Assembly: GCA_914767715.1 (NCBI GenBank) | Contig: OU612068.1 | Location: 25,234,001 to 25,298,000 of the forward strand | Length of the DNA stretch: 64,000 bases | Direction: 5' to 3' | DNA from: Membranipora membranacea | Lineage: Eukaryota; Bryozoa; Gymnolaemata; Cheilostomatida; Membraniporidae | Part shown: positions 4,524-55,500 of the stretch, piece after piece | Layout: each line of letters begins with the position of its first letter | Position numbering within the stretch: the stretch's first letter is position 1 | Notes under the pieces: generated by a model | Told to the model about the DNA's origin: nothing | Database searches by the model: none | The model's input: only the letters and a program-made list of their open reading frames with translations | Made by a program: the position numbers and the translations under genes

Positions 4524-4539
4524 GAATTAACCGCCCGCC

Positions 4540-14215: not shown

Positions 14216-14981
14216 TGAATATTCAGCGGGCTTTTTGTGCCAATTTAACTTTATATCAGCAAATTGATCTCAGCATTTCGCCTATATTGACAATAAAATA
14301 TGAAAAGGAGATAATAGCATACCAGTGTGTCGGAGTACGAGAGCTTTAAATTGTATGCATAATTTTTATCATCATAATATGTTTTCTTAGAGCAACATAC
14401 AGTAAACATCTAAAATAAGCACATTGACATCAATTTTCTTACAATAGAAAAGAATAACATAAATGATGAACCATTCCCCACAAAGAAACACTATCACATT
14501 CATTACTTAATCTTCTTATCCCTCAATTGGGCCAACATCGGTGAAAAAAGGCACTTTTAGTCATCTTGTTTTATCAGAAAAGTATGTCAGCCATTAGAGC
14601 AAAATATCATCGCTCACAGTGGCATTCATTCATGATGATATTACAACGTGATACATGAGATTGAATGAGCAAATTCAATATGAGTATTGTGTTACGCTCA
14701 ATAAGAAAAGGCAAAGTATGCAATTCTTTTATAGCTCATGTTTTCACTGCACACAATACACTGGCTGAAGTATTGGTGTCCAAGCAAACAAAAATTTCAT
14801 TGCTGATATTGTGCACTGCGTGTAGACACTGTAAGCGAAGACAACAACACACTGCTGCGCTGCTTCACTGACCTAATACTTCAGAACATTATTCAAGTGT
14901 TTTATAATAGCAGCGAGTCTGATTTACTAATAATCTATAGCAAATTAGCTAGTTAGAGAGTGACAGGTGAAAAGCATTGCT
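14216..14981. other. Intergenic; upstream region of the first PTB-like gene
   Basis: AT-rich sequence with no recognisable coding signal. A small frame at 14665-14871 has no motif. The start of the next gene is preceded by an in-frame TGA at 14961-14963. An acceptor-like GACAG at 14962-14966 would allow an upstream non-coding exon here, but none could be placed. Confidence 0.4.
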
Positions 14982-23700: not shown

Positions 23701-24371
23701 TTTTCTTGTTCAGGTGTCTTTGCAGACTTTTGTATTTTGATATCCCGCCGTTGTTTGAGGGCCTCCTCAGCTGATGGGTATTGAGGGCTGAGAGAGTTAC
23801 TAGAGACTGGGGATCTCGTCCCGTACCCTCCGTCAGAGCCCTCTGAGCTGTGCCTAGATGATCGCTTTGCAGCGTCTCGCTGTTCCCTCAGTGTCACATG
23901 ACCAAGCTCGGCCAAATCTTTCTCAATACTCAAGATACGATTGCGGAATTCAGGCCTCTCAATAATACTAGACAAATGTGTAAAAAACATGTGAGCAGTT
24001 GCTTCGCTGTCAAATCTGTACACGTGAACATGTATGGCACATTTGGTGTAAGGGTTGTAGCCGAGGAATATACAAGCTACAACATCAGTGTCTGGATATA
24101 GTCCCTGTATGACAAAAGACGCATCTTTTGTCGGTATCCCGGGATATTTTGTCTTCTCGGGTTTTGCACCAGGTTTCTTTACGACCTCTTGAGATATTTG
24201 CAGTTCACTAAATGTCAGCTTCAAGGTCATCTTAGGAAGCTCATTGTTCAATCGGCGTCGCGCTAAAAGCTCCCCAATAACGGGTTCCGTGAATTCGCGT
24301 CCGTACAAGCCATGAGATTCCTTCCAACCCAGGTACTCAACATAATAGCGTGAGCCTTCTTTCTTAGACAT
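20751..24371 (-). CDS. PTB/PID domain protein with Ser-rich tail
   Basis: Four coding exons on the minus strand, all junctions in phase: 23403-24371 (donor GTAAGT), 22032-22215 (acceptor TTTATAG, donor GTATAC), 21442-21616 (acceptor ATTGTAG, donor GTCAGT) and 20751-20895 (acceptor TGTTACAG, stop TAA). Total 1473 nt, 490 residues. ATG 24371 sits 13 bases after a strong acceptor (TTTCTTTCAG at 24385-24394), so a 5' untranslated exon lies upstream. The N-terminus (YYVEYLGWKESHGLYGREF) is a typical first strand of a PTB domain. It continues through MTLKLTFSELQIS and ACIFLGYNPYTKCAIHVHVY to a C-terminal helix, EATAHMFFTHLSSII (about residues 8-140). The remainder is Ser-rich and charged, with Arg/Ser clusters and a His/Lys-rich end. 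It is probably a scaffold binding NPxY-type peptides or lipids; partners are unknown. Confidence 0.85.
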
Positions 24372-24385
24372 GGTGCGGATATACC

Positions 24386-28520: not shown

Positions 28521-31500
28521 TTATAGCAGATCATGGATGACGACTTTCTTTCGAACAGCGTTAGAGTAACCTTCCTTGAACTTGTACCAGATATCAGTAT
28601 GTAACATGGCCGTGTCTCTCTGTGCTTGTAACGCCTCAGGAGATAATATCCTACTACTCTTATCAATGGGCCGTCCAAAGAAGTCCGTCGCTCCCTTTAA
28701 TGAAAGAAATGGTTGAGGATAACAATTTTCAACTTTTCATTTTTAGTCACTTGTGAGTATTTGACAGTCGGGTGTTTGGATCTCTCTTGTACCAATTCTT
28801 ATGACTGGAAAACGTTCTGTGACTGCAGTGCTGGTAGTGGTTGGGGAGGGGTTGTCAGGAGCTTCGGTATGGAGGCCGTAATAGCATCTCAATTGTGGTA
28901 TCGGTACCAGTTAGTTTGGTGTAAATGGTTGGCTATGTACGTAAAGCTTCATTGCTCCCGGACTTGATCTATAGAGGGGAAGCGACTCACAATGTCATGA
29001 AATAGGCTCAGTTTTAATCAACTTTTCAGGAGCAGGTCAATATAATGGATTTGTTGCTAGTTACCATGCAGGGTTTTCAAAATATTAGAGACTCTGGAGG
29101 ACATGTATACTGTATGTAGGTCAACTGCCGAAATTCAGTCCCATTCTGTGATCTTATCTTTGAAGATACATTATCTGGCGGTGTCAGTGAGCGGGAGCAC
29201 ATAGGAGCCGTAAATCTGTACCTATTGTTACTCAGACTCATTATCACATACTTTTATAAAAATAGGATAACTTTTCTGTGAACATGAGTATTTAGTTTTT
29301 TATTTCAAAACACAGATGAGATCATTCAGTGTTAGGTTAGGTTATGGCATTCTTGAGTGCTAGCTATGTTGTGACCGTCGGCTATTACGTTACTTTGCAG
29401 TCGAGGTCACTAGAACAATGGAGGTGACTAAGTGAACCTCATCCTCCATTCATGTGCAAGTTAGATGTAATAATGAAACCCTACGCCTTCATCAGCCCAT
29501 GTGACTCAAGTGTAAGGCACCAACCTATGCGTATTATCAGTTTTCCCCGAAAAGCTTGACCAACGAGGACATTATTTTGCACTAAGAGAAACTATTCAGC
29601 ATCACACATTTACAAAGAGTATAAAAGGATGAGAGATTTTCCTCATTCCGTCTAGGACGCCTGAATCAACATGATCAATTAAAATTGTTATAAAACTAGG
29701 CCCGATATGACCCAATCAAAGCTTACCTTTTGTGAGGGTGTGATATTCTTGGGCAGGAGTTTCTGTTTGTGGTTCGGTGTTGTTGATGACATCATGTCAG
29801 CTAGACTAGTCTTAGCTCGACTAGTACCACTAGGGGTATAGGCATGAGGGGTTCTCGCTGCGCTCCCCTGAGGCGTCCTGCCCTCATCTGAGGCTTTTTT
29901 ACGTCCGCCAGGTGTGCTCTCCACATTGATCAAACTGTAACATATTATATATATTATTAGATATCCAAGCAGAGCTTTTGGAGAGGTCGGTCAAGAATCA
30001 AGATAGTGCAGCTGTACAAAATCTTCTGTATTCACAAATACAAACTGGATAAAGCTGTATATCAACATATGATCTTGCAACACTGCAAACAAAACCTGTT
30101 TTAAAGTAATGATGAATATCTCTACTCTATTGCATTCCTGGTAAGATTTAGTTGCAGCAAGAGAAAAGCGTGGGCTTTCAAACAAAGTTCTCATTCTTAT
30201 TGCTTGGAGCACCTAACTGAAGGATTGCTGGAGTGAGTGAGAAGTTGATAACAAACCTGGATCGCCTGTCCTGTATTCTCTGTTTCTCAAGCTGTACCTC
30301 ATTAGCTATCAACTGCTTAGCTGTGTAACTCAAACCTTTACGTGTCTGCTTAATATCTGAAAACTTTGTCAACTCATCTACTGGTCTGAAAAAGATATTA
30401 CTCTGAATACAAATATCTCATGTAAGTCATATCGGTTAGGTCAATTCAGTATAACCAATTTTTTATGTGATGAGGAATTGTCCTCTATTTGAAGATGTAA
30501 TCAGATTTCTCTACAGCCAGCGAGCCCATGTTGAAACCAAAATTAACTTTCCTTGTTGTTGGCTAGCTTGCATTTAAGACTGCCTGAACTTGTATTTTAG
30601 CTAGCATTTCACGTAGGGTTGAAAAACATTGAAGTAAAATGATGAGGAACTTACGGCTCCAGGGTGTATGAGTAGGACCCCTCGTTATTTTTATGTTGCG
30701 TGTATGTGAGATTGTAGGCTATCATGGTGGATACCATTCCCTTGAGAACAGCCTTCTCGTTAGCACTATACAACTGGATATTGACCTGAAAAAACACACT
30801 GTGAATCTTAGCTATTGCACACAAACAGACGGGTAGCCTAGAAAACAGCCTAACAAGCGGAAATAAAAACAAGAGGGGATAACTACAATATTGTCACAAC
30901 TGCGATATATTGACTCTTTATAGAAAAGAACACAAAAGACTCAATTGCTGTGCCCGTTTTAACACGGAACCACAAGTCCTTAAACCACTGCTGACACAGC
31001 TGGGCTTTGCCCAGCAGAGCCACCAGTCAAAAATTTAAATAGAGAGTTGTGGCATCAAAACATCTAGCCAGTAGCTTGGCATGGAGTTATATGAGCTCTC
31101 AAATAGTAGTGAGTATCTTCTTCCCCAGCTATCCACCATTAGTGATGACAAATGTTGTTGTTGACCAATCAGGTGCCTTTAAAATCTAGCTGAGATCCAA
31201 CACTTTTATTAGTGTTGGATCTCAGCTCTATTATTCTCACAATGGTTACCAAGAATCCACCCAAGTATCCTTTCCAAAAAGTCCTTCCACTTGCTTGTAA
31301 GAATACCCTGATTCTAATAATGGATCAGGCAACACGCATTATGTTTGCTGTACTTACCAGCCTCATGTTAGGTTGTATGATTATATCGACTAGTAGTGGT
31401 AGTATATCCATACTAAGTACTGCGTTATTCATATACAGAATATACATTAGGGTATATAGACTTACCAGCCTCATGTTAGGTTGTATGATTATATCGACTA

Positions 31501-34500
31501 GTAGTGGTAGTATATCCATACTTAGTATTGCGTTATTCATATATAGATATACATTAGGGTATATAGACTTACCAGCCTCATGTTAGGTTGTATGATTATA
31601 TCGACTAGTAGTGGTAGTATATCCATGCTTAGTATTGCGTTATTCATATACAGAATATACATTAGGGTATATAGACTTACCGGCCTCATGTTAGGTTGTA
31701 TGATTATATCGACTAGTAGTGGTAGTATATCCATACTTAGTATTGCGTTATTCATATATAGATATACATTAGGGTATATAGACTTACCAGCCTCATGTTA
31801 GGTTGTATGATTATATCGACTAGTAGTGGTAGTATATCCATGCTTAGTATTGCGTTATTCATATACAGATATACATTAGGGTATATAGACTTACCGGCCT
31901 CATGTTAGGTTGTATGATTATATCGACTAGTAGCGGTAGTATATCCATGCTTAGTATTGCGTTATTCATATACAGATATACATTAGGGTATATAGACTTA
32001 CCAGCCTCATGTTAGGTTGTATGATTATATCGACTAGTAGTGGTAGTATATCCATACTTAGTACTGCGTTATTCATATATAGATATACATTAGGGTATAT
32101 AGACTTACCAGCCTCATGTTAGGTTGTATGATTATATCGACTAGTAGTGGTAGTATATCCATACTTAGTACTGCGTTATTCATATACAGATATACATTAG
32201 GGTATATAGACTTACCAGCCTCATGTTAGGTTGTATGATTATATCGACTAGTAGTGGTAGTATATCCATACTTAGTACTGCGTTATTCATATACAGATAT
32301 ACATTAGGGTATATAGACTTACCAGCCTCATGTTAGGTTGTATGATTATATCGACTAGTAGTGGTAGTATATCCATACTTAGTACTGTGTTATTCATATA
32401 CAGATATACATAAGGGTATATAGACTTACCGGCCTCATGTTAGGTTGTATGATTATATCGACTAGTAGTGGTAGTATATCCATACTTAGTACTGTGTTAT
32501 TCATATACAGATATACATTAGGGTATATAGACTTACCGGCCTCATGTTAGGTTGTATGATTATATCGACTAGTAGTGGTAGTATATCCATACTTAGTACT
32601 GCGTTATTCATATACAGATATACATTAGGGTATATAGACTTACCGGCCTCATGTTAGGTTGTATGATTATATCGACTAGTAGTGGTAGTATATCCATACT
32701 TAGTACTGCGTTATTCATATACAGAATATACATTAGGGTATATAGACTTACCGGCCTCATGTTAGGTTGTATGATTATATCGACTAGTAGCGGTAGTATA
32801 TCCATGCTTAGTACTGCGTTATTCATATACAGAATATACATTAGGGTATATAGACTTACCGGCCTCATGTTAGGTTGTATGATTATATCGACTAGTAGTG
32901 GTAGTATATCCATACTTAGTACTGCGTTATTCATATACATATATACATTAAGGTATATAGACTTACCGGCCTCATGTTAGGTTGTATGATTATATCGACT
33001 AGTAGTGGTAGTATATCCATACTTAGTACTGTGTTATTCATATACAGATATACATTAGGGTATATAGACTTACCGGCCTCATGTTAGGTTGTATGATTAT
33101 ATCGACTAGTAGTGGTAGTATATCCATACTTAGTATTGCGTTATTCATATATAGATATACATTAGGGTATATAGACTTACCGGCCTCATGTTAGGTTGTA
33201 TGATTATATCGACTAGTAGTGGTAGTATATCCATACTTAGTATTGCGTTATTCATATATAGATATACATTAGGGTATATAGACTTACCGGCCTCATGTTA
33301 GGTTGTATGATTACATCGACTAGTAGTGGTAGTATATCCATACTTAGTATTGCGTTATTCATATATAGATATACATTAGGGTATATAGACTTACCGGCCT
33401 CATGTTAGGTTGTATGATTATATCGACTAGTAGCGGTAGTATATCCATGCTTAGTACTGCGTTATTCATATATAGATATACATTAGGGTATATAGACTTA
33501 CCGGCCTCATGTTAGGTTGTATGATTATATCGACTAGTAGTGGTAGTATATCCATACTTAGTACTACGTTATTCATATACAGATATACATTAGGGTATAT
33601 AGACTTACCGGCCTCATGTTAGGTTGTATGATTATATCGACTAGTAGTGGTAGTATATCCATACTTAGTACTACGTTATTCATATACAGATATACATTAG
33701 GGTATATAGACTTACCGGCCTCATGTTAGGTTGTATGATTATATCGACTAGTAGTGGTAGTATATCCATACTTAGTACTGTGTTATTCATATACAGATAT
33801 ACATTAGGGTATATAGACTTACCAGCCTCATGTTAGGTTGTATGATTATATCGACTAGTAGTGGTAGTATATCCATGCTTAGTACTGCGTTATTCATATA
33901 CAGATATACATTAGGGTATATAGACTTACCGGCCTCATGTTAGGTTGTATGATTATATCGACTAGTAGCGGTAGTATATCCATGCTTAGTACTGCGTTAT
34001 TCATATACAGAATATACATTAGGGTATATAGACTTACCGGCCTCATGTTAGGTTGTATGATTATATCGACTAGTAGTGGTAGTATATCCATACTTAGTAC
34101 TGCGTTATTCATATACATATATACATTAAGGTATATAGACTTACCGGCCTCATGTTAGGTTGTATGATTATATCGACTAGTAGCGGTAGTATATCCATGC
34201 TTAGTACTGCGTTATTCATATACAGAATATACATTAGGGTATATAGACTTACCGGCCTCATGTTAGGTTGTATGATTATATCGACTAGTAGCGGTAGTAT
34301 ATCCATACTTAGTACTGCGTTATTCATATACAGATATACATTAGGGTATATAGACTTACCGGCCTCATGTTAGGTTGTATGATTATATCGACTAGTAGTG
34401 GTAGTATATCCATACTTAGTACTGCGTTATTCATATACATATATACATTAAGGTATATAGACTTACCGGCCTCATGTTAGGTTGTATGATTATATCGACT

Positions 34501-37500
34501 AGTAGTGGTAGTATATCCATACTTAGTATTGCGTTATTCATATATAGATATACATTAGGGTATATAGACTTACCGGCCTCATGTTAGGTTGTATGATTAT
34601 ATCGACTAGTAGTGGTAGTATATCCATACTTAGTATTGCGTTATTCATATATAGATATACATTAGGGTATATAGACTTACCGGCCTCATGTTAGGTTGTA
34701 TGATTATATCGACTAGTAGTGGTAGTATATCCATACTTAGTACTGCGTTATTCATATACAGATATACATTAGGGTATATAGACTTACCAGCCTCATGTTA
34801 GGTTGTATGATTATATCGACTAGTAGTGGTAGTATATCCATACTTAGTACTGCGTTATTCATATACAGATATACATTAGGGTATATAGACTTACCAGCCT
34901 CATGTTAGGTTGTATGATTATATCGACTAGTAGTGGTAGTATATCCATACTTAGTACTGTGTTATTCATATATAGATATACATTAGGGTATATAGACTTA
35001 CCGGCCTCATGTTAGGTTGTATGATTATATCGACTAGTAGTGGTAGTATATCCATACTTAGTACTACGTTATTCATATACAGATATACATTAGGGTATAT
35101 AGACTTACCGGCCTCATGTTAGGTTGTATGATTATATCGACTAGTAGTGGTAGTATATCCATACTTAGTACTGTGTTATTCATATACAGATATACATTAG
35201 GGTATATAGACTTACCGGCCTCATGTTAGGTTGTATGATTATATCGACTAGTAGTGGTAGTATATCCATACTTAGTACTGCGTTATTCATATACAGATAT
35301 ACATTAGGGTATATAGACTTACCAGCCTCATGTTAGGTTGTATGATTATATCGACTAGTAGTGGTAGTATATCCATACTTAGTACTGCGTTATTCATATA
35401 CATATATACATTAGGGTATATAGACTTACCGGCCTCATGTTAGGTTGTATGATTATATCGACTAGTAGTGGTAGTATATCCATACTTAGTACTGTGTTAT
35501 TCATATACAGATATACATTAGGGTATATAGATTGACAAAGCATAGTCATCAGACTTGTACTGTGTTGCTTCTTCTGTGTAACCTGTAGAGTGAATATTCA
35601 TAATGTTATAAGGGGGACTGTTGCCAATATCTGTCCAGATTGACAGAGGGAGCCATTGATAACTTTGCCCTGTTGCCCTGTTGACGACAAAACAGAGTGT
35701 GGGCTGCCCCTAAAGAGGGACGCAAGTTGCCCGAAATCCCCATACTCATTCTGAGACTGTGATACATCATAGTAAACTAGAATGCATCCTAGAGGTGAGG
35801 CCATGGTGGACCTCCTATTCGTGACGGTACAGCAAGCTGCCAGAAACTGAAACAGGCACTAATCGCCCATCGGCGTCACACTTTGATCTTAGCCAATAGG
35901 CCGAGAAGCGATCAACTTTCATTATATATGCAATATCATATATAATACAATACTGCCCAATGGCGATTCAGTGCTCAGGTTTCCCTAAATATCTTATAGA
36001 CTTAAAGTCAGATGTCAGTCAGCAGGACTGGTACAATATGCTACTGATTGCTGCAGTCTCAATGAAAAACAATCAACATAAATAGAAAAATAGGTATCAG
36101 CATAGAAGTTTCTATTGCACATGAAATTTTGAAGGCACGAAAACCCATAAACAATTTATATGAAAGTTTGAACAAGTAGAACCAGTAGGTACTCACCTCA
36201 TATTGTACTTTAGGATACTGTATCTTAGGTTTAGCTCCTTGTGAGAAGTTAAGATGGAAAACTACGGATAAATAGGGGAGATAACTCATAAGCACATACG
36301 CCTGCTGTGAGAATATCTTTTTATTTAGTATGTCTGCATAACACAACCAATCAGCTCCACTGCTTACCTGAATAATACAAAACAATCGCAACCAGTACAG
36401 TATAGAGCGTATGATATACATGTAGACAGTGCAATAAACGAAATACAATGTATGCACCTCAATATGCAATGCATATATCATAATTAATATGCTGTATTTA
36501 TGGTTCTAAGCAAAAGAAAAACAAGCTATCACTTTATTACCGTTTAGATTAGAATAAAGAATTAAGTTTGTATGGAACGGATGACAAAGCAACTCAGATT
36601 CAATATGGTATAAGACTTCAAAACTGTCAATCTCACGGGAGTTTAACCTCTTACTTATTAGAAAACCTTTTGAGTGCATCAAAACATAAAACATTGAAAT
36701 TTCTATTTCCCTTCATACATTGGAGTTGTCTTCCCACAATCTAAGATAGGATAAATGCGAATTCATGGATTAGGAAGTTCTTATGCGCAATCGGTTTTCA
36801 ATTTCCAAGTATGACTGATTTATCTTTTAACTGAGGGAGTAGTATTTGACTTACAGATCTCATAAATGGGTCTTTATATTTCATGAGAGGGAAGTTTTCA
36901 TGTAAACCCTGAACTAGTCTGTTAAATTCTCCACAAGCTTGAGCCTCTCTGTATATCGTATCCATTCTAAAATAAAGTCAGAGAGCAGGGTATGTATTAT
37001 ATATCTGTAACCCTACTGGCAATGGAAATAGTAACAGTAATAGTTAAAGTAGTAATAGTACTAGTATTAGCATGAGAAATAGCCATCTTTTGTAATAGTG
37101 ATAGTAGTAATAGTAATGGTGTGGTAAAGCAAACAGTCAATAGTCATGATGATCAGACTAATGCAAATTCATGAAGATTGATACATTTGTACCTTTTAAC
37201 ATTCACAACAGGATGTGAATTGTTTTTTTGTTAGGCTACATGTCATATTTTGACTGACGCAAATTTGTGGTTAATATTTACCCTTGTCTGACATCAAATT
37301 TGAATCATCAATCAGTATCCCGAAAAAAATCCCAAGTCATTCCAGGCAAATATCAGACCATACAAAGGAAAGGTTTTACTGGCCATTTTTCATACAAAGA
37401 TATTCTCTCAGTTGTAAAACATATTAGAGCAGACATTCTTAAATGAGAATATCATCTTACCTCCCAGATATTGATATGTCTTGAGCCTCTGTATTTGGGT

Positions 37501-40500
37501 TCGAGGACGGTTCATCATATATACTTGGCATCATCGCTCTAAAACAAAAAAGTAAATACATAAACTTGAAGTGGTGCGCAAATTTGTCATAATAAGAAAA
37601 CCAGGAAAGACCAAGGGAGCACAACTCAGTTAATCTCTCGATGGTTAGACACTGCCATAGACAGCAATATAGAGAATATCAGTTTGACTTCAACATCCAG
37701 TTTATCAGGGACAGAACAAGACTACTTTACAGTTATCACCAATAATTATTGTTTCTGTTTGAGTAGCGTGTTTTTGTATTATACATATCCGGGATGCAAA
37801 ACTTTTGGTGGAAAATCCTGCGCGCAGCAGACATTTGCAGCATGAAAAAAAAACAAAGCACAAAACTGTGCATCGGTCTCCGGAAAGTGCAAATAGCTGG
37901 GAGAAGTCCGGAGGCATATTTCTGGTAGGCCAATGATGTCACCAAGAGGTTTTATCAAGAGCCAGAGGGCGCAGAGCCATGAACGGCCCACACCTTGATG
38001 ATATTTTATATGACCTCAGGCTACAGTGTGACGACTGATGCCATTCAGTCAGCTGTAGCCTCAGGTCCTATTACTATCTCCCAAAGCTTAGTGAAACCTT
38101 TCGTGTTGAGCTGATGGCAAACAAGATGGTTATGTAACATTTAGAAAGCACATAATCGTCATAAAAATGCATTCCTGGTCAGAATCCAAGAAATGCCATG
38201 ACACGGGGCGAGTCCTCAGAAGAAACCGAGTAACCAAAGCTTGAGGGTTAAACTGTTTCCTGTGGGATTTTCGCAGGTCAACCAGAAAATTCTCCTTCCT
38301 TCTTCGGAACTCTGCAGTGGAGACTCAGAAGTTCAGAGAAACTGCTGCCAGCCATGATACACAAACAAGTCTCTTACATATCACAATTCAAAAAATATGT
38401 TTTACTGCTTATTTTTATGAGTTTTTCCGTGAATAATAACTTCTGCCTTGGTTCTTTTACCTAACGGGTAAAAGTTACTGGACTTTTTAGCCTACATGAT
38501 TAATCTAATATCATCAGACATGTTATACTCTTGTCTACACCTTCTCATCAAAATATTGAAAACTGAAAGAAAACAATTTACATCTTCAAACCGCAACATA
38601 CCTGTAACGCAGCAGCGTCAACAGTCAGAATAACTGCTGAAGACAATTTGATGACTTGAAAGTGTCTTATCACATTTTTTATTTGGATACATTCTGTGGT
38701 TTTGAAAACAATGGTTGTTTGATTACAATACCTAAAAAATGTAGTTCATTAATGATGAACACAGAAATATTTTTACTGGGTAAGGTCTCATTCAGACTAT
38801 TGTTTTTATTATTATGCTGATAAAAAGTGTCCCGAACTTGCTAACAGATCGGATTTCTATGAGATATTGACAGAATTGAACTCAGTAAATTTGGAGAGAC
38901 GAGGAAAGACTTTCTACCTGGTGAAGGTTTGATATTATTACTATAATTATGCTGATAAAAGTGTCCCAAAATTGGTAACAGATCTGATTTCAATGCTATA
39001 ATGACTGAATTGAACTCAGTAAATTTGGTACGATGAGTATACATTGCAGACGAGGTGATGGTTTGATATTGATAGCCAGAGTATCATGACATTGGATTTC
39101 AATGAAGTCCAGGACTGTTGCCAAAGGTTTTGAGAGAGCCTAGATTTTCTCAGCCGAAGGGGAAATTCTTTATTTCAGTCCAATTTATTTCTGCCAGATT
39201 TGATAGCTAAATCGCTCGGACAACCTTATCCAATGTTACAAAAAAACTTGCACATAGTCGTGAACATTATGTGGGTGGGGTTAAAAACAGCGCTAGAGAC
39301 GTGCGTATGGGAATGATGGTATGACCGACATTTCTATGAAATAGCTAGCAGGGTTTTGAAGGCTCTGATGGGCCAAAGTACGTCTGCTGCAACGCCTCAT
39401 ATTCAAACTTGTTAAATCTGGCTTATTTTTCTGAATTCGAGGTTTATGGGAGGCCACTACTAGTGCATACTGATCCATACAGGCAGGGATGAAGTTATAA
39501 CCACGAGATAAAAAGAAAAGAGTGACAGGGTCAGGAATTAAAGAAGTATTTATCGATGGTAAGCTCAGATGCGTAGCTTTGCATATCTCAGTGCACGTGG
39601 CGACTTTTGCATAAAATTTTAATAAGTGCCTCTTTCTACAGCACTGACTGATCATACTACAGTTGAAAAAAAACAAAGTAAAATTTCATTTATAGTTCAG
39701 AGTTGTTGCCCCCTTCTTCAAACACAGGTATTTCATTTATTTATTTATTTATTTATTGTCTGCTTAGATCATATGGGCAGACCAGACTGACAATATTGGA
39801 GCATTAAAAGTGCAGGTTAAATCAATCCCATTATTGAGTCTGCTGTTAGAGCCAAAACAAATAAACTGATGAGATAGTACCTGCTTACCTGGATTGTGAA
39901 GGCTTGTGGAAGACCTGCTGCCAGAAGTTAAAAAGGCTTTTCTGTTCATCTTTAGACCCGACTTTCATCGACATTAAGGCTTTCATCGTCAAATCACTTC
40001 TCCGCCTCCTTATAAACTAAAGAGTATACATAGAAGTTATAGATTGAAGATTCATTGAAAATATAAGGCAGCATTCAAATTGACATTTTTGGAGTTGCTG
40101 CCCCATTTGAGTCGGAGATGATACCATCATTGCTTATGTTTTCATCATACTGCAATTCTCCCCACACTTGCAGCAGGCAAATATGATAAAATGGTACAGT
40201 CATGTAAGCAGTTATATTGTTGATTTTTCTTTCCAATATGATGATGATGATGTAATATACATTGAGCATTGCCGTTATTGATCATTTACCTTTAAAGTGG
40301 CTCCAACTCATAAGATGATACTATGCGGCAATTTAGGTGAACTTTGATTTGTTAGAGTCTACAAACTAACTAACAGAACTGTGCTGGAGTTTGGGAAAAC
40401 AAGACTTTATTTTGGAAGCTGGCGCTTTTGCAAAACAAGATGATTATTTTGCACCAAGAGCCAGAACCCTGCTGTTTTACGGCAGTTTCATCCCTACGTA

Positions 40501-43500
40501 ACAGTAGTACAGTATATTATTTGTTATTATAACATAATGACTCAGAGCTATTGGTGAACTTTTCAATAATATACCTGTAAACTGACTCACAACCAATGCT
40601 AAATCTAACATTCAGCACCAAAATCTGAAATCAATGTGCGAGCTTGTATACAGATCGTGGCGCCAGTTGCAATTATTTTATAACACACTTTGTCTATAAT
40701 GTCTGTAGATAGGAAACTTGTTGAGTAACCTCCGCAGCAATGGCATCATTAAAATCAAGCGCTGCTCATCTCTTCTAAATTATAACTCAGTATTTCACTG
40801 ATCCGTCCGCTGCCAATCCGCTGCCGATTCTATGGTAATCAATTTGTCAGTAAGCAATGAGGCAGCAAATCTACCGCTGCTCATTAGCGCCGCTGACCCT
40901 AGTATATCAACATAACACTCTATATATCATATACATGTATCGTCAGCCGTTTATATTGTTACATTACACTATAAATTATAGGCAATCGAGGGGCCCGTTT
41001 TTACATCATCGCTGGGGTGAGTAATGGCGCAGTTATGTTTAAAACTGCCTAAATTGATAAAAATGGTACACACACACTTCCACTAATATAGATGATAGCC
41101 GGGAACGATCGGTTTTATGAATGAGGAATATAACCTCTATATAATAATGTACTGACTTATAATGCTATTTGAAATCATTAGTGAAGAGTAATTAGTGTGC
41201 TATGTCTATTAACCCTCTATCTGTAGGGGTATAGAGGAAACTGACTCACTTACTACATCCGCGACCCCCTGAACTCTCTTCTCTAACTTATAAGGGCTGG
41301 CGTTACAAAACCCCCTACTTTGGTCCAAACGTACCATAGCAAGCTGTTTGGTTCAAGACCACATGAACTCCCTTCTTTAATTTATATGGGTTGGCATTGC
41401 AAACCCCTTTACCCTGGTCTGCACACACCATAGCACGCTACTTGGTTCAATCATCATGCAACTATTTATGAGATCTGAAAGGTTGAAACAGCCTGAAACC
41501 ATGCTGACTTTTTTTATTTTGGCCCAGTTTTTTTTTTATCACCGCCACCACATTTTCCTATTTTTACCGGTCACTACAGTACAGGTAGCCTCAAATCTAT
41601 TAATAACCTCTAGTGACAGCAGGGAGCATGATGACAACGCCTTGATAACGCTGTAAGCCTATTACCTTGGCGGTACAAATGTAAAACTATCTATAAATAA
41701 ACTGGCAATTGACCAAAGCGGATTTTTGGAGCAGAGGTCAGCAAAAATAACATTCTTATAGATGACTACACGAGTTATATTCAAACTCCCTGAGGTAGTG
41801 CTATATTGTATATATATGCTTTGATTCCTATTATGCGTTTTACCGCAAAGCCAACGCAAATGAATGTTTTTTTTTTTTTAGAATTGTATGGGGCTAATTA
41901 TCGTACACATTGTAAATAAATGATGTATTGAACTGAGTTTGGAGTTGTATGCTCCTTGTAAATATACTATACACTCTGCCATTGTTGACTAGACCAACAC
42001 CTCAACAAGACTTTTCCACACATGTCCCAAGAACAAGGTGACAAGGTCATCAAGGTGAGGGCTCTATCTTGTGATGTTAGGGAATTGGAAATTGCACTCA
42101 AGGTACATTTTTGTCTGGATTAATTCCGTATGTCGAATCATAACATCACTGGAATCTTTCAAACTTGGTACACCGTTTGGTGCAGACGAATTATTTTGAA
42201 GCTCCTTAAAACCTCAATTTTGTGGTTTTGATACATCAGCACTTTTGCCTCCTCACCAATTGATTCACATCTCAGTAACCATCAGACAAAAATGCACCAC
42301 CAGAATGTTTCAAACTGTCTGGAGATGCAAAACTTTGTATGACCTCACAGAAAAATTTCCAGCACTGACATATACACTGACTGAACCTATTGGCCAGGTG
42401 GCTCGCTGCAGTAGGAAGCGATTTAGCTGCAGAATAATAGCTTTGTTTGGCACTGGTATGTTTATCGTGGTGGTATATTATTTTGCTTAGATGGGTCATG
42501 AGTAATGGTGAGGGCTTCTGGGTACTTTGTCAGCACACAGCACACTTCTGGTGTGATGCTTAGATTGGTTTTAGATCTTTGATAAGGAAACCTCCTATCA
42601 TAACAAGGTAGCAGCTTGCAATAAGTGACGCAATATACCCCAGGTCAGTCTCTACAACCTTACAGTAGACTTCGATGCAAGTTCATACCCCTCGTAGTAA
42701 TAAAACGAAATGTTCTTTGTTTAGTCTTTGTCGTAAGCATGTTGTTGTTTACTGAAAAACTCAGCATTTTATGTTATTTTTCAATTTCAAAATAATTCAT
42801 CGTCAATATCTTTTTTGCACCTCCCTTTGAATTTTCAAAAAACACTCAGAAGTTATGAATGAAATCTTATTTCACATAAGAAAGTCATAAATTTGAGCAC
42901 TCATACACAGTCTGCTCTTCTCATCATGCCCACCTATGTAAAGATCTCTTCAAAGACGTTTCAAGTTTAGACAGGTCAGTGCAATGTCATCAACAAAGGT
43001 TTTTGTCTTTGATGGCTGATTTGAATCTGAGAAAACTTTACTTGATTTCAATGTTTTTCAATTTCGGTTCAGCTGAAGTTCTCGAGTCAAGATCTAGAGT
43101 GCCGGATTGATTTGGCCTTGCCTTAAATAAATCACCGAGCTTTAACCTCAAAGTTGTGAACGCTATCACTTGTTGACCAGGTTAATCCCAGATTAGCCCA
43201 CCCACAAACTGGGGGAAATGGGGGACAAAAAAGAGTGATTTGTGGGAATCAGTACGTAAGGGGCCTCTAATCTAAATTCATTACAAACCTGCAGTGTGTT
43301 AAGACATGATCTTATATCACTAGATGATCTTCTACACAGAGCTATCAGGGTGGACATATCTGTATTCAATCCCTCGTACTTACAAACCTATACAACATAA
43401 ATAACACCTATGAGCTGATAGCAATGATAAATTGCTAGCGGAAATTAAAGTTACAAATTAATACCAAGAAATTAAAATTTGCGATGTTATTTGAACTTTT

Positions 43501-46500
43501 TGAGTAGGAAGCCACAAGTGAATTTTAGACTGTCAAAATAAAGTTTAAAAGGCTCCAGAACATTACTATACAAAAATAGCTGATTAATAACAAAATATTA
43601 CATCAAACAAGACTAAATGTTTTCTAACTAATTCTGGCACAGTCACTTGTAGGTGGCAAGGCATTCCAAAATATCCGGTTATGGGTTTGTTTGCGTCATA
43701 ACAAACGTATCTTTCCTCATGTAAGCCGGCACAACATTATGCCTAAACTACAATTAGCCAAATAAATTCGAGCTAGTTTATGTCTTTTGATGTTTTAATT
43801 CACATGAAAAGGATTTCAGGCCCAGCCCAACGACCTAAAGTTCAATAACACCAGGATATTCAATATTTAATTTTGGGGAAAAACAAGGAAGGCGGGGTAG
43901 ATATGCACTTTTAACACGCTGAGATTTGACGTCCGGTATCTGAATACCGACGCCGCTATGTGTCTACTGAGAGCTTGCATGCTCAGACTTGCCTAGAAAC
44001 TGAGATAAGCTTGCCCATGAAGACTCCAGTGGACGTGATATTGTTTGACCAATATGAACTACTTTGTATTTGTGAGGACTGGATGTTATGGCACACAGAA
44101 GGGTAGGGAAGGGGAATATAGGGTTGGGTTGGTGGGGAAGGATAGGGTAGGGAAGTGCAGGTTAAGGGTAGGTTTACGGTAGTGTCTACGATTACCTCGA
44201 GTAGCCTGGTAGCCAGTCTGGAAGGGCACTGTGAAGGAAAGTTGAGCACTAAAGCTTGCTGTCTCAGGTTTCTCAGAGCCGGTGTGTATCTGTCCAATAC
44301 AAAAATATGAGAAGATAACACATGGATAATCTGAGGATAATATTATAGATACGCTTAGCTCTCATCTACTACTTTTAAAATCAGCTACTCTCTTACAGAA
44401 GGGGATCTGTTTCTCTTCGCAAGAATACCCGGTTCTCAAATACTATGAACAAAATAGGGTTGTCTTGGCAAGTGAGCGGTCATTATTCATACATTTTAAA
44501 AACAAAATCACACAGTCAATGACCAGGTGAATCAGGTGAATCGACAAAGTGACATGGATAGATTGATCATGTTAAATTTAGTTTGTAAGGTATACATACC
44601 AGCAAACACAATAAAAAACTGTGCCAAAATAAAGTAATTCAGTCAAAATCCATTTGGAAATTCCATTCTCTTCCGCATTGCGCAAGGTTTTGATCAACAT
44701 TATTTTTGAATGATTATTCTACCCTATTAATGAATAACATAATTTTGGGGAACATTGGAGGTGTTTTTTTCAATCTATCTTATTAATTTGTCAATAAATG
44801 CTGGCAATGTAACGTTTAATGTGTAACAAAACTATCAAAAGTGATAAATTGAAAGTGGTTAAAGGGACCGAGAGAATCAAAGGCATCAAACACGGCGGAA
44901 TGTATTGCACAGGTAGTCATGAATCTCAAAATCGCAAACAAGGTTGAGATTGAAGCAAATTTAAATTACATCAACCTTAGTTAATACCACATTCAAAGTC
45001 CTGTAATTAGTTCCTAGCAAATTTAAGCGCCTGACTAAATAACATATTATGAAGAGCCAATGTGTTTACGTGATTATGAACTGTTATTTCTGTGCTGACT
45101 GAAATGTTATCACTCTACGAGAACCTAGCAGGCAATTAACTTGATTATAACAGCCGCTCAAGGAAGTGTTTCGTTTAACACCTTGGAGGCTTTTTGTCCA
45201 GATTAATCACTTACAAATCGTTGCATATGCAAATTATCGGCCGCATCAGTGCTGATGACTGAGCCTTCTTCTTCTTGGACTGATCAGCGCTGCCGCTGCC
45301 CGACTCGGTTATCTTAGACAATAAAGCGTTGATTGCCGGCTGTAAAATACAACATCATAACTTTGTGTTACCAGAGAGTTTACTTACAATACACTCACAA
45401 CATTATCAGAGATTTTAGTTTGGTGCAAAATACTAGTAGAGTGCTTGTTTTTACTCAATAAATGTTTGAGGTTCTGTAGATAAACAAACTGGGGCTCATC
45501 AGTAATTCAATAAGCATTATACTGCAGTCAAAACTCAACCTGCTATATTTACTTTGGTTTACCATTTAAATTCTCCAGATTCCAGGACTGACCTGTAGAC
45601 AAAGCACAGAATTTGCTTGCCTTCTATGTTGGCAGAGTAGTAAGAATTGCTTGTATTTTATAGCATGACTTTTGCTACGAAACAGTGTCACAGGCAAAAG
45701 ATTTAATTATAACCGATGAAATATGATAAAATCTGATCATTCAGAGAGCAAATTCCTCCCATCCCCTAATTGAGGCAAGACAGTAAAAAGATAAAACAAT
45801 GATGGAGTTCTGTGACAAATCCTGGCGAGGAAATCTACTCACAGCCGGTGCTCCATCAATCTCATCGATGACTAGACAGTTGGGGCGGGGGTCATGTACC
45901 CCCAACAGAGGCTTCATAGTCAGAGAATCCTCAATCCTATCTTTGAATGACTGGGCGGTTCTCTCATCTGATGCATTCATTTCGATCACATTGTATCCGG
46001 CGTGCCTGGCCACAACGTGAGCTAATGTGGTCTTTCCTAATCCTGGCTTTCCACAGAGCAATACCACCTATATCAAAAACAAACAAACATGCAAATCATA
46101 CATCAGCATGAATGACGAGAAGCTGGTTATGGAAGTTATTCATAATGGCTTTCACTGGCTTTGATGTTGTACTTGTTTAGAAGGACACAGAATGTCGATA
46201 TAGCAACAAGTATGGGTGAAAGTAAGGGTCATGACGCTGTTGGTGACTGAAGAATATGTGAAATATTTATGCAAATCAATTGAAAGCTCAGCAACTGGCA
46301 CCAACATTCCATCAATGACGCAACATGTGGGGCCTTCAGAAACTTTCCCTGCGAATGACAGAAAAGAGAATAACGAAAACGTCAATCAATCATTGAGTAC
46401 AATACAATAATGATTGAGATGTGTGTGTTACATATAAATATACACATGTCGAGTGTGTAGTTGAGCAATCATAGGCCACTGTAATACCAATCCAATTTAT

Positions 46501-49500
46501 GGTGTATAAGATAGGCAGTAAAGGGCAATGCATTCATTTACATTCTACAAAACATCAACATAGGAAATATTGCTGAAATTTCTGACAGCATATAAAACAG
46601 TAGTAACACAATAAATGTACCGGCCATGCATTAAAATGATGGGCTATGTTAAACGTAGATGCCCGGCTAGCCGCCATGTATCAGCAATGAAAAGCCGCAC
46701 TTCAAATTTGAAGTTGTCTGCTCATTGTGAACAGAGAGTTGTTTATTAACTCGTACAGATGACAACATCAAGGATATCTGATAAAAATTGAATTACAATA
46801 TCATGTAGGTGCATGTTAATGAGTTTGAGTAATGGGCCAAAACTGTCATAATTGTGCCCACCTTTTGTTGGGGTCTGTATTGAGTGTCGAAATCTTCATC
46901 TAGACCGAGATCCTCATATTTCATCTTCATAAACTCTTTATAGTTGAGCTTATTACCACCTTTCCCCTTCCCTGCACCTGCTTTACTTTTCTGGACCACA
47001 GGCTTTGGCTTTTTGAAGACAACATGATCCCACATTTTAAGCCACCTCAGCAATACTCTGTTGACTGCCTGCAACAAATTAGTAAGAAAGTAAGAATAAT
47101 ACAGATGGCATCACGGACAGTTACGGCGGCAGCACGCGTTCAAAATTGAAACATATGCTAATTGACAGATTGAAAAAAATTCCAAATATCATTTCAATTA
47201 TTGTTCAGCCAGGGAGGGCATATGGTTCGTTACATTACATTATATACGCGAGCATATGTCCAGACCTGGATTTAATAATATTCTACACGCTTCAGGTACA
47301 TTTTGATGACTCACAATGCTAGGTTTGCATATTTTTTCATTTTTACACATATGTCTAGTTTAAGATTCCTCAAATTCAGTTTGGATACTTTGGTAATATT
47401 TACAAGCTGCTACTGGTCTCGGTACATTACCCAGGGCTAAGGGTGCAGTGTAATAGTGAAATGTTATCCTAAGCGTAAAGGATGTGTGAATTTTGAATGT
47501 GTAACATTATTGCAATGTTTCCTTTGATAATAACACTATCACTACCCACTTGGCAATCACTTCCAAAAAGGTAAACGGCCAAGTATAAAAATAGATATCA
47601 GTCATTCCAAGGCAATAACTCAGTGTCTATTTTTATGGTAACTAGGAGTTGGTCAGCCGGAACTTTGTTTTCTTACTCGGTTATGATTGTGAACTCTCTA
47701 GCGCAGGCCAAACAGGCCTATGCTGTTATGTAGAATACTATAAGCAGATATTAGAAGGAGCAGCGAATGAAGTGGAGATAACATCAAATCTGAACCAGTT
47801 GCGCCCAGCAGGAAGCGCATAGACTCAGGCCCAGCAGACGTGCATATTGATAAAGGGGGTGCTACTCGACTGCCCCATCTAGTCTAGGGCCATAGATAAA
47901 GTTGTAGACATGATATCAACGGAAAGTCTGACTCCTCCAATGCTTATTTAGGTGCAAAAATAGGATATAGTAGGTAGTGTTGGTCAAAAGATAACGGGAG
48001 TTTGAAGTAATTCATTATACAGTTCTTATACATTCTGGTCATAAAATCCTAATAATTATATCTTACTCTAAATGATAGCTAGCAATTAGCGAGCCATAAG
48101 ACTATCAAAACATCATTACCTCAACCCTCGTATCATATCAGGCAGCGGGTATATAGCATCTAAGAGTAGATACAATTTTGCTTATCACTCGGCTGAGTAA
48201 AGCTAAACTGTGGCGTAACAGCACAGCAGCCGTACCGCTGCCCACATCCCTTTAGCTTTTCATGAATGAATCGTTTGCCTGATATAGTAAAAGCCAAGTA
48301 AAAGCTAATTGTTTTTCGTTACTCAAATTCTGTTGGTCAGCGCAATATGTATATATGCCGATTCACCGACAGGTAGTTTTCAAGTTTTACCAGGGATTTT
48401 GTGTCTGGGTTTTTAGAACATCTAGCATGGAGAGTGAGGGCGAAATGTAGAAAAGAATTTAGGCAGAACTAAATAGTGTTTACATAGGAGTGATTGTTTC
48501 AAAAAGAAGGGCATCATATTGCATATGTTAAACTGTGAATAAGCTATTTTCAAAATAACTGGCAGTAAATTAAGAATGTAAGTGCAAGTTAATAAGAAGA
48601 TATTCATGTTGATTTGAGAACATTTCATTACAACGACCAATGATGCGCTTGTAGTTCATGAAGTCATGGTAGTTTGGAGTTGTGTGCCCGCATCCACACT
48701 ATATAGGTAATAAATGACAGCAGTAGAGTGCTGCATGTCTCTTTGCAAACCATAATTCTACTTCCCAGGCATCATGACATAAATCTTGATGATTTTTGTG
48801 GTAAACAATACAACACAATAGGACAGACTAACAATAATTTCATCATTCTGTGGTTACTGTACAACATGGTACAAAAACCACTGTCTGTGTCATAGCACCC
48901 AAGTTGTAACGATTTGTACCGAAATACATTATACAGGCAACTAGTGTGTGATATCGAAAATCCATCACCAAAAGTTTGTATTCTGACATTACGTGAAAAT
49001 GAGTGAGCGGTTGTGACAATGACAATTCATTCAGTCAGCACTAGCTGTCATAAGGCTACCGAGAGGAAGTAGTGTATGACTTGATGACCATGGCACAAGT
49101 GACAAACAACTGAGGCTTGTGATGCGGCTTTCTAACAATTGGAATTGACCCACTGGCCACAGGTTTTACCAGAGCAAAACGGCATCCTGGTTTAGTGTAG
49201 GGATTGGAGTTCACAAACTTGTTGTCATAATAATGGTTTTCACCATCAATATGTCAGTTTAAAAAAATACATCTTGGTTACAATGACCTAAGAGTGTGGG
49301 CTCATCCTACTTGTGTCTTGTGACATGGTCTGGAAGACTCTTTCCATATTATTCCAAGATTCTTTCAGATTTTACCCACTATACCACATATACTCTCACA
49401 TATCCATCTTACAAATGTTGCATCAACAACTTTAGTTTTCTAACCTGTGCGGGTTGACAAGCCACCCAGATGTTAAATTGAAAACAACATTGCTGGCCGC

Positions 49501-52500
49501 AATAATAATATTTGTAGTATTTAGCATTACAGGGAAACATAGTTGTGTTGAATCACATCAAGTTAACGGGATGGAAGGTCATGACGAAAATAAGTCATCG
49601 CCAACATCTCGCTATCTCATATCTCAACAAATTAAATTTGAGAAAATTGATAAATTGCTGTTCACAATAGCAACAATGTTTATATTGGCAGACTTTCAAT
49701 TTTCACCAAGTTACGTAATAAACGCAATAGAATTATATCATAACTGGCAGAATTAGATAAATCAAGGCTACTGAACCTGCACCATGTGAATTATCTCCAT
49801 ACGTGTTCTCAACATTGTTGTTATTTATTACGAGTTATAGGACAGGATAAAAAAAAGTAGAGTAAACTCAATCCAAGCAGACGCTGCTGTTTAATAGGTG
49901 CAGTTATCGAAACGAAATACTAAGTCAAGTTGATTTAGTAGGTGTACATTAAGATCGGAGGCGGTTGAAATTTACATTCAAAGAGGTTCATCTGTCAGCA
50001 AACGGTCATCATGTTACAGTAAACACTAAGCGGAATAGCTTAGCAGCTTCAATTCAATAATTGTAGATAATTTTCACTGTTCTTCCATATATTATGATAA
50101 TTAATTAATCTGCAGTTACACATGTGCTGTTGAATGATGCAACCGCATCTGAAATATAGACTTAATCAAATTACTGCTCATGTATATTGAGGATACCGAT
50201 TGGCCTCATTATTGCAATGGCCTGTATATTAGTCAGCCCTGCTGCTGTCCAATGCCACAATGTCCTCACATGAGGATATTAAACCACATAAGAGACAACA
50301 TAATGTCATAAGCTGATGATGCAAATCATGAAGTTTTGTTCCAAAGGACAGATGGCATCATTTCTGCCCTCTATTGTTGTAAGCTAAGTTTTTGCCCATT
50401 TCCTAGGTTGTTCGGTGCATTTCACATGGAAGTACGAGTAACCGAGGTTTAGAACTGGTGTATATCTTGATGTTTTTTTTAGTTTCTGACCCAAGGCAGT
50501 ATTTGGTATGACGCACTGGTACCGCCATGTGTATGGGTTTGTTGTCAAAGTATCTCTGCCCCTGGAGACATTGTGTGTGAGGTTGAGCGCGGACAAAACA
50601 GCATTTCTTTATCCAATACTGGAGGTCATAAGAAGTCGTCGACGTGCCTTGAAAAACATTCCTGATATTTATGCTAAAGACATACTGATTAAACATAATT
50701 GTCTACACCTGTAGTCAGTGCAGTTATAAGGGCACACACCACTGAGCTATCCAGCCAACATATACATCGCCGCTAAGAACTGATAATATTATCTAAATAC
50801 GCTCAGAATTATACTTTTTCATAGCTGTATGCTTTTAAAATTAAATTAATATGCAGAGTGCATAGATTGCAACATATTTTCATGTTTTGAAATGAAATCA
50901 CTTATTGCTGCAGTAGCTAGCGAGGTCATATAGCCGTAGGGGAAATATTTACTGGTTGAGTAGTTGAGCTGCAGGGTATTTCACACACTGCTCATGATAC
51001 AGTTTAATCTGATTACCTCTATCAGCGTAAAATTGTGTCTCCACTATAATACACACTGACCAAAAAACCACATTAGGGGAAAATTGAATTTGATAGTCAA
51101 AACAATGCACCCTGGGTGTCCATAATTCCGTCGAGTTTGATCTGGAGTCAAATGTCACTTGGATAGAGAGAGTGAATGTAAGTGTAGAGTTATTCGGTTA
51201 CAGCGCTCCGCTCACTCGCTCACTCAGCTCTCAAGCTCTCCAGTTTTAGATGTTAGTACATTAACCGATCCTATGATAGGAATGCAACAGTGACCACTTT
51301 TTATCCAGCGTCAAACATTTGTTACGTTTGATGTGGGATGCATCGACAACCTGTTTACATCATAGCAGTAATTGCCTTTGCCATATTGATGACTTTCGGT
51401 ATAAGATAAGAGCATACCAAAAATGGTTCCATCCCTATCTGAGATGCTCAAAGCACCCGGTACACTTTCCTTCAGCGAGATTCACATAAAAATATCGCCA
51501 CCTGACGTCGGTGAGTTTTTTTGGGTAAAATATGAGTCTTAAGAGGCCAGTGCAAAATTAGCGTGGGAACTTGAATTTTGTTTTGTTGGGGGGGGGGGGG
51601 GGCAATGTTACTATATATATGACATGTGACCTGATTGTATAACATGTTGTATCCTCAGGGTGACTGATGGGACAGGATCTGCTTCTGAGTGACCCACAGT
51701 TTAATCCTGATTTTCTTTAAATGGAAGGTTAAACAATAATTTACAATTTAATTTCTTTTGACAATGACTTGCATGGTCTGCAATTTTTTCTTGGAAAGTG
51801 TTTCAACCTCCCAGTGGATTTGTATTTGAGCTATCCTTACATTATAATTTCAAAGCTCGGCTCATTTGACCACCACGGGCAACTCAGCTTTATTTCCCAG
51901 ATTTTAATATTTCATGTCAACCTCTCACAAAATGTGGTCAATTTTTTTCTCTCCATCTCCGAAATTCCGTCACATGCATTGGTACAAATTGGATACGAAT
52001 TAGGAAATCTTAGTTGATATTACACCATATAACTTCCTGATATTATCTGTTGACCAAGCGGGACATAGAGGACGAGAGCGTAGGCCTTTATAGTGCAAAT
52101 ATCAGTCAGGGGGATGGAAATACATTTTTTTGTGGAAATTTGTCACGTAGTTTGATGTCATAAAATATGCTGAAAAACCGTATTGACGACTTGCAAAAGA
52201 AAGTTTTGATGTAGAACACTGTGATCAGCCAAAATTGACAGAATGGCATGTGCCACCAAGCCCTCCTCATACATGAGAAGTAATATATATGAGACAAATA
52301 TTTTATCAATTGTGACACGCATACACATCTGGCAAGGCAATTAAGAAATATCGCTACATATTACCTCATCGCTCATAAGATCTATGTAAGATTTGGGAGA
52401 GTACAGATCCACCCACAGCCTGGAGTTCTGAACCTGGGGTACCACCTGATCCTCTTTTCCATGTGATCCGCCATGTGATCCACCATCATCCATGTCATCA

Positions 52501-55500
52501 CTACAAATATGAGTCAAAGTGGTAGGAAGGAAAGAAATTTCAGCATATTTGGTCCGACATGAATGTGGATATCCACTCATGAAATAGTAAACAGTGGGTC
52601 ACAAGCAACATCATTATCTGTTGCATAAAATAAAATTGAAATTGTTTCACCAGTTTGAATGTCACGATTTTTGATGACATTATGAGTACACAAGATTACT
52701 ACAATCTGTAAGTCAAGGGGCCAGCAATGTATCACCTCAGGCGTCATGTGTAAATAAAGCAACAGGAAAAAACACTGTGAATCAAACTCTAAACGAAAAG
52801 TATCTGCCACCGATAAATCAATAATATTTGGCAATAAAATTTGCTATTTGAGTCTTTTACTTAATCAAAAGCACATTTCTGATGATTGGGGGAAGACAGT
52901 TTTAAGACCTGCACACAGTGATGTCACTAATGTTACAGGTTGAATGGCCGGCAGCTCCAGGTTAGGTCGGAACCGATTCACTGCTGCTTACTTTGTTTAG
53001 ATTTGCATAGTCAGCGATGACACATTTACACTTCTGGAAAAATCAGGTTAGGTTTTGTTGTGAAATTTTATGATCCCACTATGGACTATGATCGCTAATA
53101 AGGACATTACCACCAAACCTTGGCTCGGATAGAGTAACAAAACTGTCACAAGTCATTTAAAAAGTTGCGTAACGACTTTGATACCTCTCTAGTTTATCGC
53201 CAAGCTCTTTCAAACGTTCGAGAGCATCTAGGGTCTCCCTGGATCTCTAAAAAAAACAACAGTAAACAAGTAAAAAAAACTCCCACCAATTTAACTCAAA
53301 GTCATAAACAAGCGAGGGTCAGTTAAATCATAACAGTTGGACACTTCTGACAAGAGTTTACAAGTTAGAATTTGACCTTGTCTTGTATAGGGTCAGGCTG
53401 TGAAAGCTAGGGAGCACTTTGTGACAGCTATGGGTCAGCCTGTAACAGTATGTTGTGGCTGCAGAGGTTATTTTGATGCCACTGGTTAACATTATCCTCT
53501 CAAGTCAGGTTTACAGTTTTTCTCCAGGAATAGCGAGTGAACCCTGACGTCCTATTCCAGCATGGTCCATTGGAGAGAGGGATGCTCGGTACTTCCTGTG
53601 AAGGCCGTAAACAAAACGTTGAGAAACACCTCCCATATTAAACATTGGGTGTGGTACTAGAAATCATAAAACCAACCCACCATTATTCTCTCAGTGGGCA
53701 ACCTAAGTTTATGACTTGAATCAGACAATAGTTTGCGCAGGTGGGGAGGGGGATTGCAAAAAGGTATAAAACCATTCACTTAATTTCTATCCAGAGTGTG
53801 TGTCTGGTAGGTCTTACCCTGGTTGCTACTTGCTGTTTAAGAGTCTGGAAATCAACACCAAGTAGGTCCCTGGATGCCGCTTTCTGAGAATCGCTGCTAT
53901 GCTCTGCCTACAAACACAGAATTTACACCAGGCATGAAAACTTTCATGTAATTCAGTAGTATTTTTGTAATGGTGATGTTTATTAAAATCTAAACAATAA
54001 TGTTGTCAAGCCTATATGAGAAGGCAGCATCGGTTGCGTCACAAATTGGATTAGAGGCTGATCATATTTCCAGAGTGCGATGTACATACACCGAAAAGAG
54101 CGAATTGAATTAGAGCATCCGTCTATCAATACAAAGTTATAGGATTAATACGTTAAAATAAGGTGGAGTCGAGATGATAGGTCCGCCTGAGACTAGACAG
54201 TGACAATTGGCCAATTTCAATCTGTCTACATACTGGGCGTTAGCGCACAGGTTGGGCTTGCGTGTGGTTGAAGAAACATTGTTTCATCATATGATGTGAG
54301 AATTTGTAAGTCGACACCTGAGCGAGTGATGACTGTCAGCGATATTTGGGTGTACCCTCTCAAGGCCACGAGAGACAATGGGAAACAATCCATCCTAAAT
54401 TAACACTAGTACAAACAAAACAACACATTAACACTAATGATTATGAGGAAGAAATATGCCATCATGCACTGGGGGACCGGGCCATGAGAAGTGTACTTTT
54501 GATTTAAATCTGTTTTTGCAAACTTTTATTGAGTTTGATTTATTGGTGGTGTCCTTGTCTTATGGGCTGCTGAGTACTTTTCCAGGAACATTATTAACAT
54601 AACAATAAATTTCTCTTTTACAACGAAGATTAAATGAGATCTTGCTTATCTGTAGAAATTTATAATCACATTGGTAATTGCTGAGAAATTGGTTATATAT
54701 GCCTGATATAAAGCAGTATGACTTTTGATTTCATTCAACTTTAAAGTTTTATATTCGTCTAGCTAGTCAGTTTTCCCAGGCCAGCCAGGTTACAGCTCTG
54801 ATACTTATCAATGAGAGACCACATTCAGTGTTTGCTGAGTATCGCTGTGGCCTGCCGAGTGCATAAAGCACTTGAAAACAACCAAAAACAAGGTTTATAG
54901 AAGTATGCATCCAGCAGCCTTGTTTCTCAGTTGAGAAAAAACTTATTGTGGTGAGAAGTTGACCGAGGGCAACCGCAGAGAGGCTTCACGCTGAAATGAC
55001 ACATGGCCAATCAAGACCACCGTGTCTGATCTAACCTAGCGCTGGTGAAAATGTCTGAGCCTCTGCAAAACAATATGAGCCAGCAAAAGGGTTTGGCTAG
55101 CTTTACTTATTGCGGCTTAGCCCCTATTAAGCTGCTTTTGCCTTATAAGAAAAGAGAATAAAACATATTCCCTTATTATTGGTAAGCATTTCTGCAAGTC
55201 TAGAGAATTTATAACACAGATATTCACAGCAGATTTAGGAGCAGGTGGAGGTCTTACAATTTTTATGATTTTAAAATAATAAACCACCATGTGAATAGCC
55301 TTGTCCTGCGGCTAATTTTTTTTTTAACCACAAAATAAACCATGGCTACCATGTGACCATTATCTAAAAGCAGTTCCTTTGGACACATTTTTTGTTTCCG
55401 TTGGCCCTTGAAGCTTTGTTAAATTAATGTGTAACTAATTCTCTGGCCACAATGCAGCAAGGACAGATTTTCAGGACGAGTTTGGACATGACTTTTAAAT

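Follow-up and report, generated by a model that had tools for sequence, protein, structure and literature searches.

Within the 64,000-nucleotide window analysed here (Membranipora membranacea, contig OU612068.1, positions 25,234,001 to 25,298,000 of assembly GCA_914767715.1; all coordinates below are those of this window), a gene identified by homology as CTF18 contains a tandem array of 39 units and 4179 bases (31352..35530, minus strand). Each unit consists of the 3' end of coding exon 17 followed by the intron bases GTAAGT. Most likely a segment spanning the exon-intron border was duplicated in place and grew to 39 copies, with the first donor (donor 1) being the one used and units 2 to 39 lying silent within the intron.

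Tandem Repeats Finder gives a single array at this locus (31352-35531, period 107, 39.0 copies, 97% matches). Split into units, the array comprises 33 of 107 bases and six of 108 bases, the latter (units 13, 15, 26, 27, 37, and 39) being marked by one inserted T. A unit is composed of 101 exonic bases (102 with the inserted T) and six intron bases, and all 39 units, read on the minus strand, end in GTAAGT. Unit 1 (35424..35530, minus strand, with the first G of donor 1 at 35429) is the sole unit inside the open reading frame. At the far edge, unit 39 (31352..31459, minus strand, donor 39 G at 31357) runs on into native intron, GTAAGTACAGC. The two ends of the duplicated segment have a single base (T) in common at the duplication junction.

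Exon 17 (35430..35582, minus strand, 153 bases, phase 0/0) was placed by spliced alignment to the Watersipora protein, with acceptor ACTCTACAG and donor CCG/GTAAGT, the slash marking the exon-intron border. It is made up of 52 unique 5' bases followed by the exonic part of unit 1 (101 bases). Its neighbours on the same strand, exon 16 (36197..36367, ...YPKVQYE) and exon 18 (30655..30785, VNIQLYS...), join it in phase. Exon 16 ends TATGAG/GTGAGT, exon 18 starts CAG/GTCAAT, both joins are phase 0, and the three exons together translate as ...KVQYE/VTQKK...NMRP/VNIQLYS.... The intron upstream of exon 17 measures 614 bases and intron 17 (30786..35429, minus strand) 4644 bases; the stretch from donor 1 to donor 39 accounts for 4072 of these, and without it 572 bases are left. 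The Watersipora and Bugula proteins carry no insertion across the exon 17/18 join (...MRPVNIQLYS).

The host gene (28521..59418, minus strand) was modelled as 21 coding exons from start codon to stop codon, with 2931 bases (stop codon included) that encode 976 amino acids without an internal stop. The model is based on spliced alignment to Watersipora subatra CTF18 with one place corrected by reading the sequence, and its exon borders are predictions. In that correction exon 57006-56795 was exchanged by hand for 57463-57251 plus 56922-56795, so that the array exon, number 16 of 20 before, becomes number 17 of 21. Spliced alignment to a mixed-protein template had given false exons, and the Watersipora template was used instead. 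Identity of the modelled protein is 58.8% to Watersipora subatra (986 columns), 53.5% to Bugula neritina (942 columns), and 39.3% to Lingula anatina (1005 columns). The joined exon translations also match solved CTF18 homolog chains, presumably human, at E 3.6e-78. By this full-length homology, which includes the AAA+ domain and the C-terminal region, the gene is CTF18, the clamp-loader large subunit, and with 21 exons, an open frame and in-phase joins it looks intact. A preliminary description of this DNA had named the gene CTF18 and the exon 17, counted 39 copies of the exon end plus GTAAGT, taken the array edges for genuine exon and native intron with in-phase joins to exons 16 and 18, and proposed amplification in place within an intact gene; on all of these points the homology, the repeat analysis and the curated model agree with it. 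Its description of the gene as essential is unsupported. CTF18 mutants are viable in yeast and mouse. Other tandem repeats occur in CTF18 introns: a 134-bp repeat at 38798-39070 (two copies, about 79% alike) between exons 13 and 14, and a 94-bp repeat at 41263-41450 (two copies, 76% matches) between exons 12 and 13.

The array is not a product of chance, given its density of GTAAGT (39 on the gene strand in the array versus 8 in the remaining 26.7 kb of CTF18) and the lack of any array above 7.1 copies in a yardstick survey of the same genome. In that survey, which sampled 260 kb as 26 stretches of 10 kb at regular intervals, seven arrays had a period of at least 30 and at least 2.5 copies, with a maximum of 7.1 copies. 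When units 1-3 plus the upstream flank were used to search the genome itself (339,339,785 bases, 18 contigs), all 17 of the matches reported, a lower bound as very common words are skipped, fell inside the CTF18 array. The preliminary description had named the presence of this repeat as a satellite away from CTF18 as evidence against its reading; among these reported matches, again a lower bound, no dispersed satellite copies at other loci were found. The published assembly, tzMemMemb1.1, comprises 339,374,674 bases in 21 scaffolds (PMC10290214), and the search covered all but a few small scaffolds. Rfam gave 0 matches at gathering score in window positions 30800-36400, and an exact 50-base probe had no match in viral contigs.

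That the array is an artefact of assembly is extremely doubtful. Tandem arrays are easily mis-sized. Against this, the assembly was built on 66-fold HiFi reads (PMC10290214), and the unit variants are distinct and ordered, though the count of 39 could still be inexact. Copy number was read from one haplotype; the alternate haplotype is GCA_914767555.1 (PMC10290214).

Variation among the aligned units is confined to 12 substitution columns and one indel column inside the unit, two further gap columns at the row ends being a product of the chosen cut points. The substitution columns comprise eight nonsynonymous and four synonymous changes and the indel column is frameshifting; the nonsynonymous to synonymous expectation is 233:70 for all possible single changes and 69:32 for transitions alone. 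The variation bears no sign of coding constraint, and in this respect the inner units look like untranslated DNA, with 12 events leaving weak selection possible. The array had been described as made of coding sequence, which holds for unit 1 and not for the other copies, varying as they do in the manner of untranslated DNA. The claim of 39 identical 5' splice sites stands for GTAAGT, the six columns of which are invariant, but not for the nine-base site, which is CCG/GTAAGT in 27 of the 39 units and CTG/GTAAGT in 12.

The invariance of GTAAGT could be seen as support for a positive role of the repeated motifs as U1 sites, e.g. in blocking premature cleavage and polyadenylation in a long intron. 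This role would draw on the presence of 39 such sites at one exon-intron border region, and U1 'telescripting' is a known effect according to PMC4889658. However, the invariance is no evidence of selection, because the unit has further stretches, such as alignment columns 78-101, that likewise show no variation. Intron 17 also holds just one AATAAA and 0 ATTAAA, the former situated beyond the array on its 3' side (intron offset 4219), and most of the length of the intron is made by the array itself. A function of this kind is very improbable.

The order of variants within the array points to how it may have grown. Adjacent units are more alike than in shuffled arrays (lag 1, 0/2000 as low), and weaker similarity is seen at lags 2, 13, and 14 (p 0.0135, 0.0165, and 0.0045, respectively, uncorrected for the 25 lags). 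Such a pattern would be expected from unequal exchange and block duplication. Unit 1 is letter-for-letter identical to units 4, 17, 24, and 29; thus the array is young, or else the coding copy is not cut off from the other units. A more far-reaching proposal is that the 3' two thirds of exon 17 evolve in concert with the 38 untranslated copies, exchange feeding unselected variants such as the 108-base frameshift type or P-to-L into the sole coding copy, and that decoy donors let the number of units adjust CTF18 output. The identity of unit 1 to four inner units would be expected under concerted evolution and could be explained by a recent origin too. Taken jointly, the two parts of this proposal are distinctly unlikely to hold.

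The reading frame separates donor 1 from all other donors of the array. When exon 17 up to each donor was joined to exon 18 and translated, the join from donor 1 remained open, and donors 2-39 (38/38) gave the same early stop after 62 codons from the exon 17 start, inside unit 2. As only donor 1 leaves the frame open, the CTF18 protein requires donor 1. All array donors, whether CCG/GTAAGT or CTG/GTAAGT, match 8/9 consensus bases, in a gene whose 19 modelled donors range from 5 to 8 with a single one beyond the array's own at 8/9. Five AG dinucleotides of the unit have 41-53% pyrimidine upstream, and the 19 modelled acceptors 47-82%. These donor and acceptor lists follow the model before curation (19 donors including array donor 1, and 19 acceptors); the curated model contains one further donor and two further acceptors, and one listed acceptor was later dropped from it.

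Published work on competing donors bears on which of these sites would be chosen. According to Carranza and others, competition between donors of near-equal strength favours the one closest to the upstream acceptor if each flanking intron is longer than 250 bases, and minigenes in which an exon with 365-base introns on either side carried two identical CAG/guaagu donors at a distance of 52 bases used the upstream donor exclusively (PMC9225289). The evidence there comes from human transcript data and transfected cells, and we infer that the rule would carry over to a bryozoan and from two donors to 39. Since the introns flanking exon 17 are long (614 and 4644 bases, the latter 572 without the array), exon definition should pick donor 1.

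The same minigene result stands against the idea that the array acts as a dampener, with some transcripts using donors 2-39, gaining the premature stop and being degraded, such that copy number lowers CTF18 output. All 38 later donors would indeed deliver the same early stop. The human CBS array, considered below, has a like anatomy, and the title of Lievers 2001 links that array to reduced CBS activity. The unit variation, however, gives no sign that the intronic copies are under selection. Overall, dampening by decoy donors is rather unlikely.

Several points weigh against the view that donor 1 is used and the remaining units are silent. The use of donor 1 is itself predicted from sequence. 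An older proximity rule, also given in PMC9225289, favours the donor nearest the downstream acceptor and predicts distal donors. That the unit lacks an acceptor rests on a crude measure with overlapping ranges, one unit CAG (47%) being equal to the weakest modelled acceptor, and the acceptor of exon 17 is ordinary at 59% pyrimidine. Predicted RNA openness is also higher at donor 39 (0.182-0.252) than at donor 1 (0.071-0.095). Under three settings, donors 1 and 39 are both predicted to be more open than most inner donors, with medians of 0.010-0.018 for donors 2-39. This comparison proves nothing, because the other native CTF18 donors have medians of just 0.022-0.029.

Under the favoured account of in-place duplication with donor 1 in use, the following sequence of events may be envisaged. 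A 107-base segment spanning the exon 17/intron 17 border of CTF18 would have been duplicated in tandem and would then have grown to 39 copies via unequal exchange or a similar process. Each unit would bring a strong donor and no conspicuous acceptor, and the spliceosome would define exon 17 from its single acceptor to donor 1. Units 2-39 would turn into intron upon arising, leaving the CTF18 protein unchanged, and the array would drift and homogenise as an untranslated minisatellite.

Other features are present elsewhere in the window. A large inverted duplication (256-4525 and 8336-12844, pieces 74-91% identical) carries two receptor genes. Both look Toll-like, having LRR matches and TIR matches just under the Pfam cut-off; the right copy is a 724-amino acid open frame and the left copy is several shorter frames. 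Related 45-bp minisatellites lie 3' of each receptor copy, with 1.9 units on the left (259-344) and 7.1 units on the right (12749-13073), and given this difference they may have expanded after the inverted duplication. An exact 81-bp tandem duplication at 26889-27050 (2.0 copies, 100% identity) is apparently very recent. Two long open frames, 14964-16352 (plus strand, 462 amino acids) and 23331-24431 (minus strand, 366 amino acids), have no Pfam match above cut-off and look adaptor-type by eye.

Known systems offer several partial parallels to the CTF18 array. In human segmental duplications, De Grassi and Ciccarelli in 2009 described minisatellites that sit at an exon-intron border and change the structure of the intron (PMC2812944). 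As described there, however, they are tied to new introns and repeat-retaining transcripts, whereas in CTF18 the intron is merely lengthened. The tandem genomic duplication model of intron gain, illustrated by potato RdRp (PMC4974935), likewise involves duplication across an exon/intron border and conversion of former exon to intron. In that case the border is the intron-exon (acceptor) one and an intron is gained, whereas in CTF18 it is the donor border, present in 38 additional copies, and no new intron was seen. The CTF18 units bring donors; the AGs within them score low on a crude measure whose values overlap those of real acceptors. The 38-bp variable number tandem repeat (VNTR) of TERT intron 6 is also an intronic tandem array, and splicing of the gene can depend on its copy number (PMC3948165). 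Among the titles of the matches listed from the open-licence literature, no invertebrate exon-border array was noticed.

The closest parallel is the human CBS gene, and it overturns the preliminary claim of no described example, because 24 exon and 7 intron bases are repeated there 16-21 times. The CBS variant c.1444_1467+7(16_21) is given as a '31 bp VNTR' (PMC2630376), the reading as 24 + 7 bases, summing to 31, being derived here from the coordinates. The repeat is listed as 'exon 13-intron 13' together with raised homocysteine (PMC1395315); the activity entry there is shared by several polymorphisms and is given no weight here. In both genes the unit combines the 3' end of a coding exon with the opening bases of the following intron and is repeated in tandem and in place; by its coordinates, the donor region should sit in each CBS copy. 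In CTF18 the unit holds 101 + 6 such bases, and under the predicted splicing the frame is kept through the first copy. The two differ in scale and in host, the CBS array having a 31-base unit in 16-21 copies, about 0.5-0.65 kb, and being polymorphic in human, and the CTF18 array having a 107-base unit in 39 copies, 4.2 kb, in a bryozoan. Through the array, a coding exon is open to exchange with copies that are not under selection. The array also provides a natural test of splicing choice among dozens of equally strong donors, beyond two-donor minigenes. Provided that no donor except donor 1 is used, exon definition allows numerous copies of an exon border to accumulate harmlessly in their own gene. 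The CTF18 array can be regarded as a larger member of the CBS kind, set apart by its 4.2 kb size, copy number, long exonic share and host phylum, and it adds to human CBS a second, larger example of the origin and growth of exon-border arrays.

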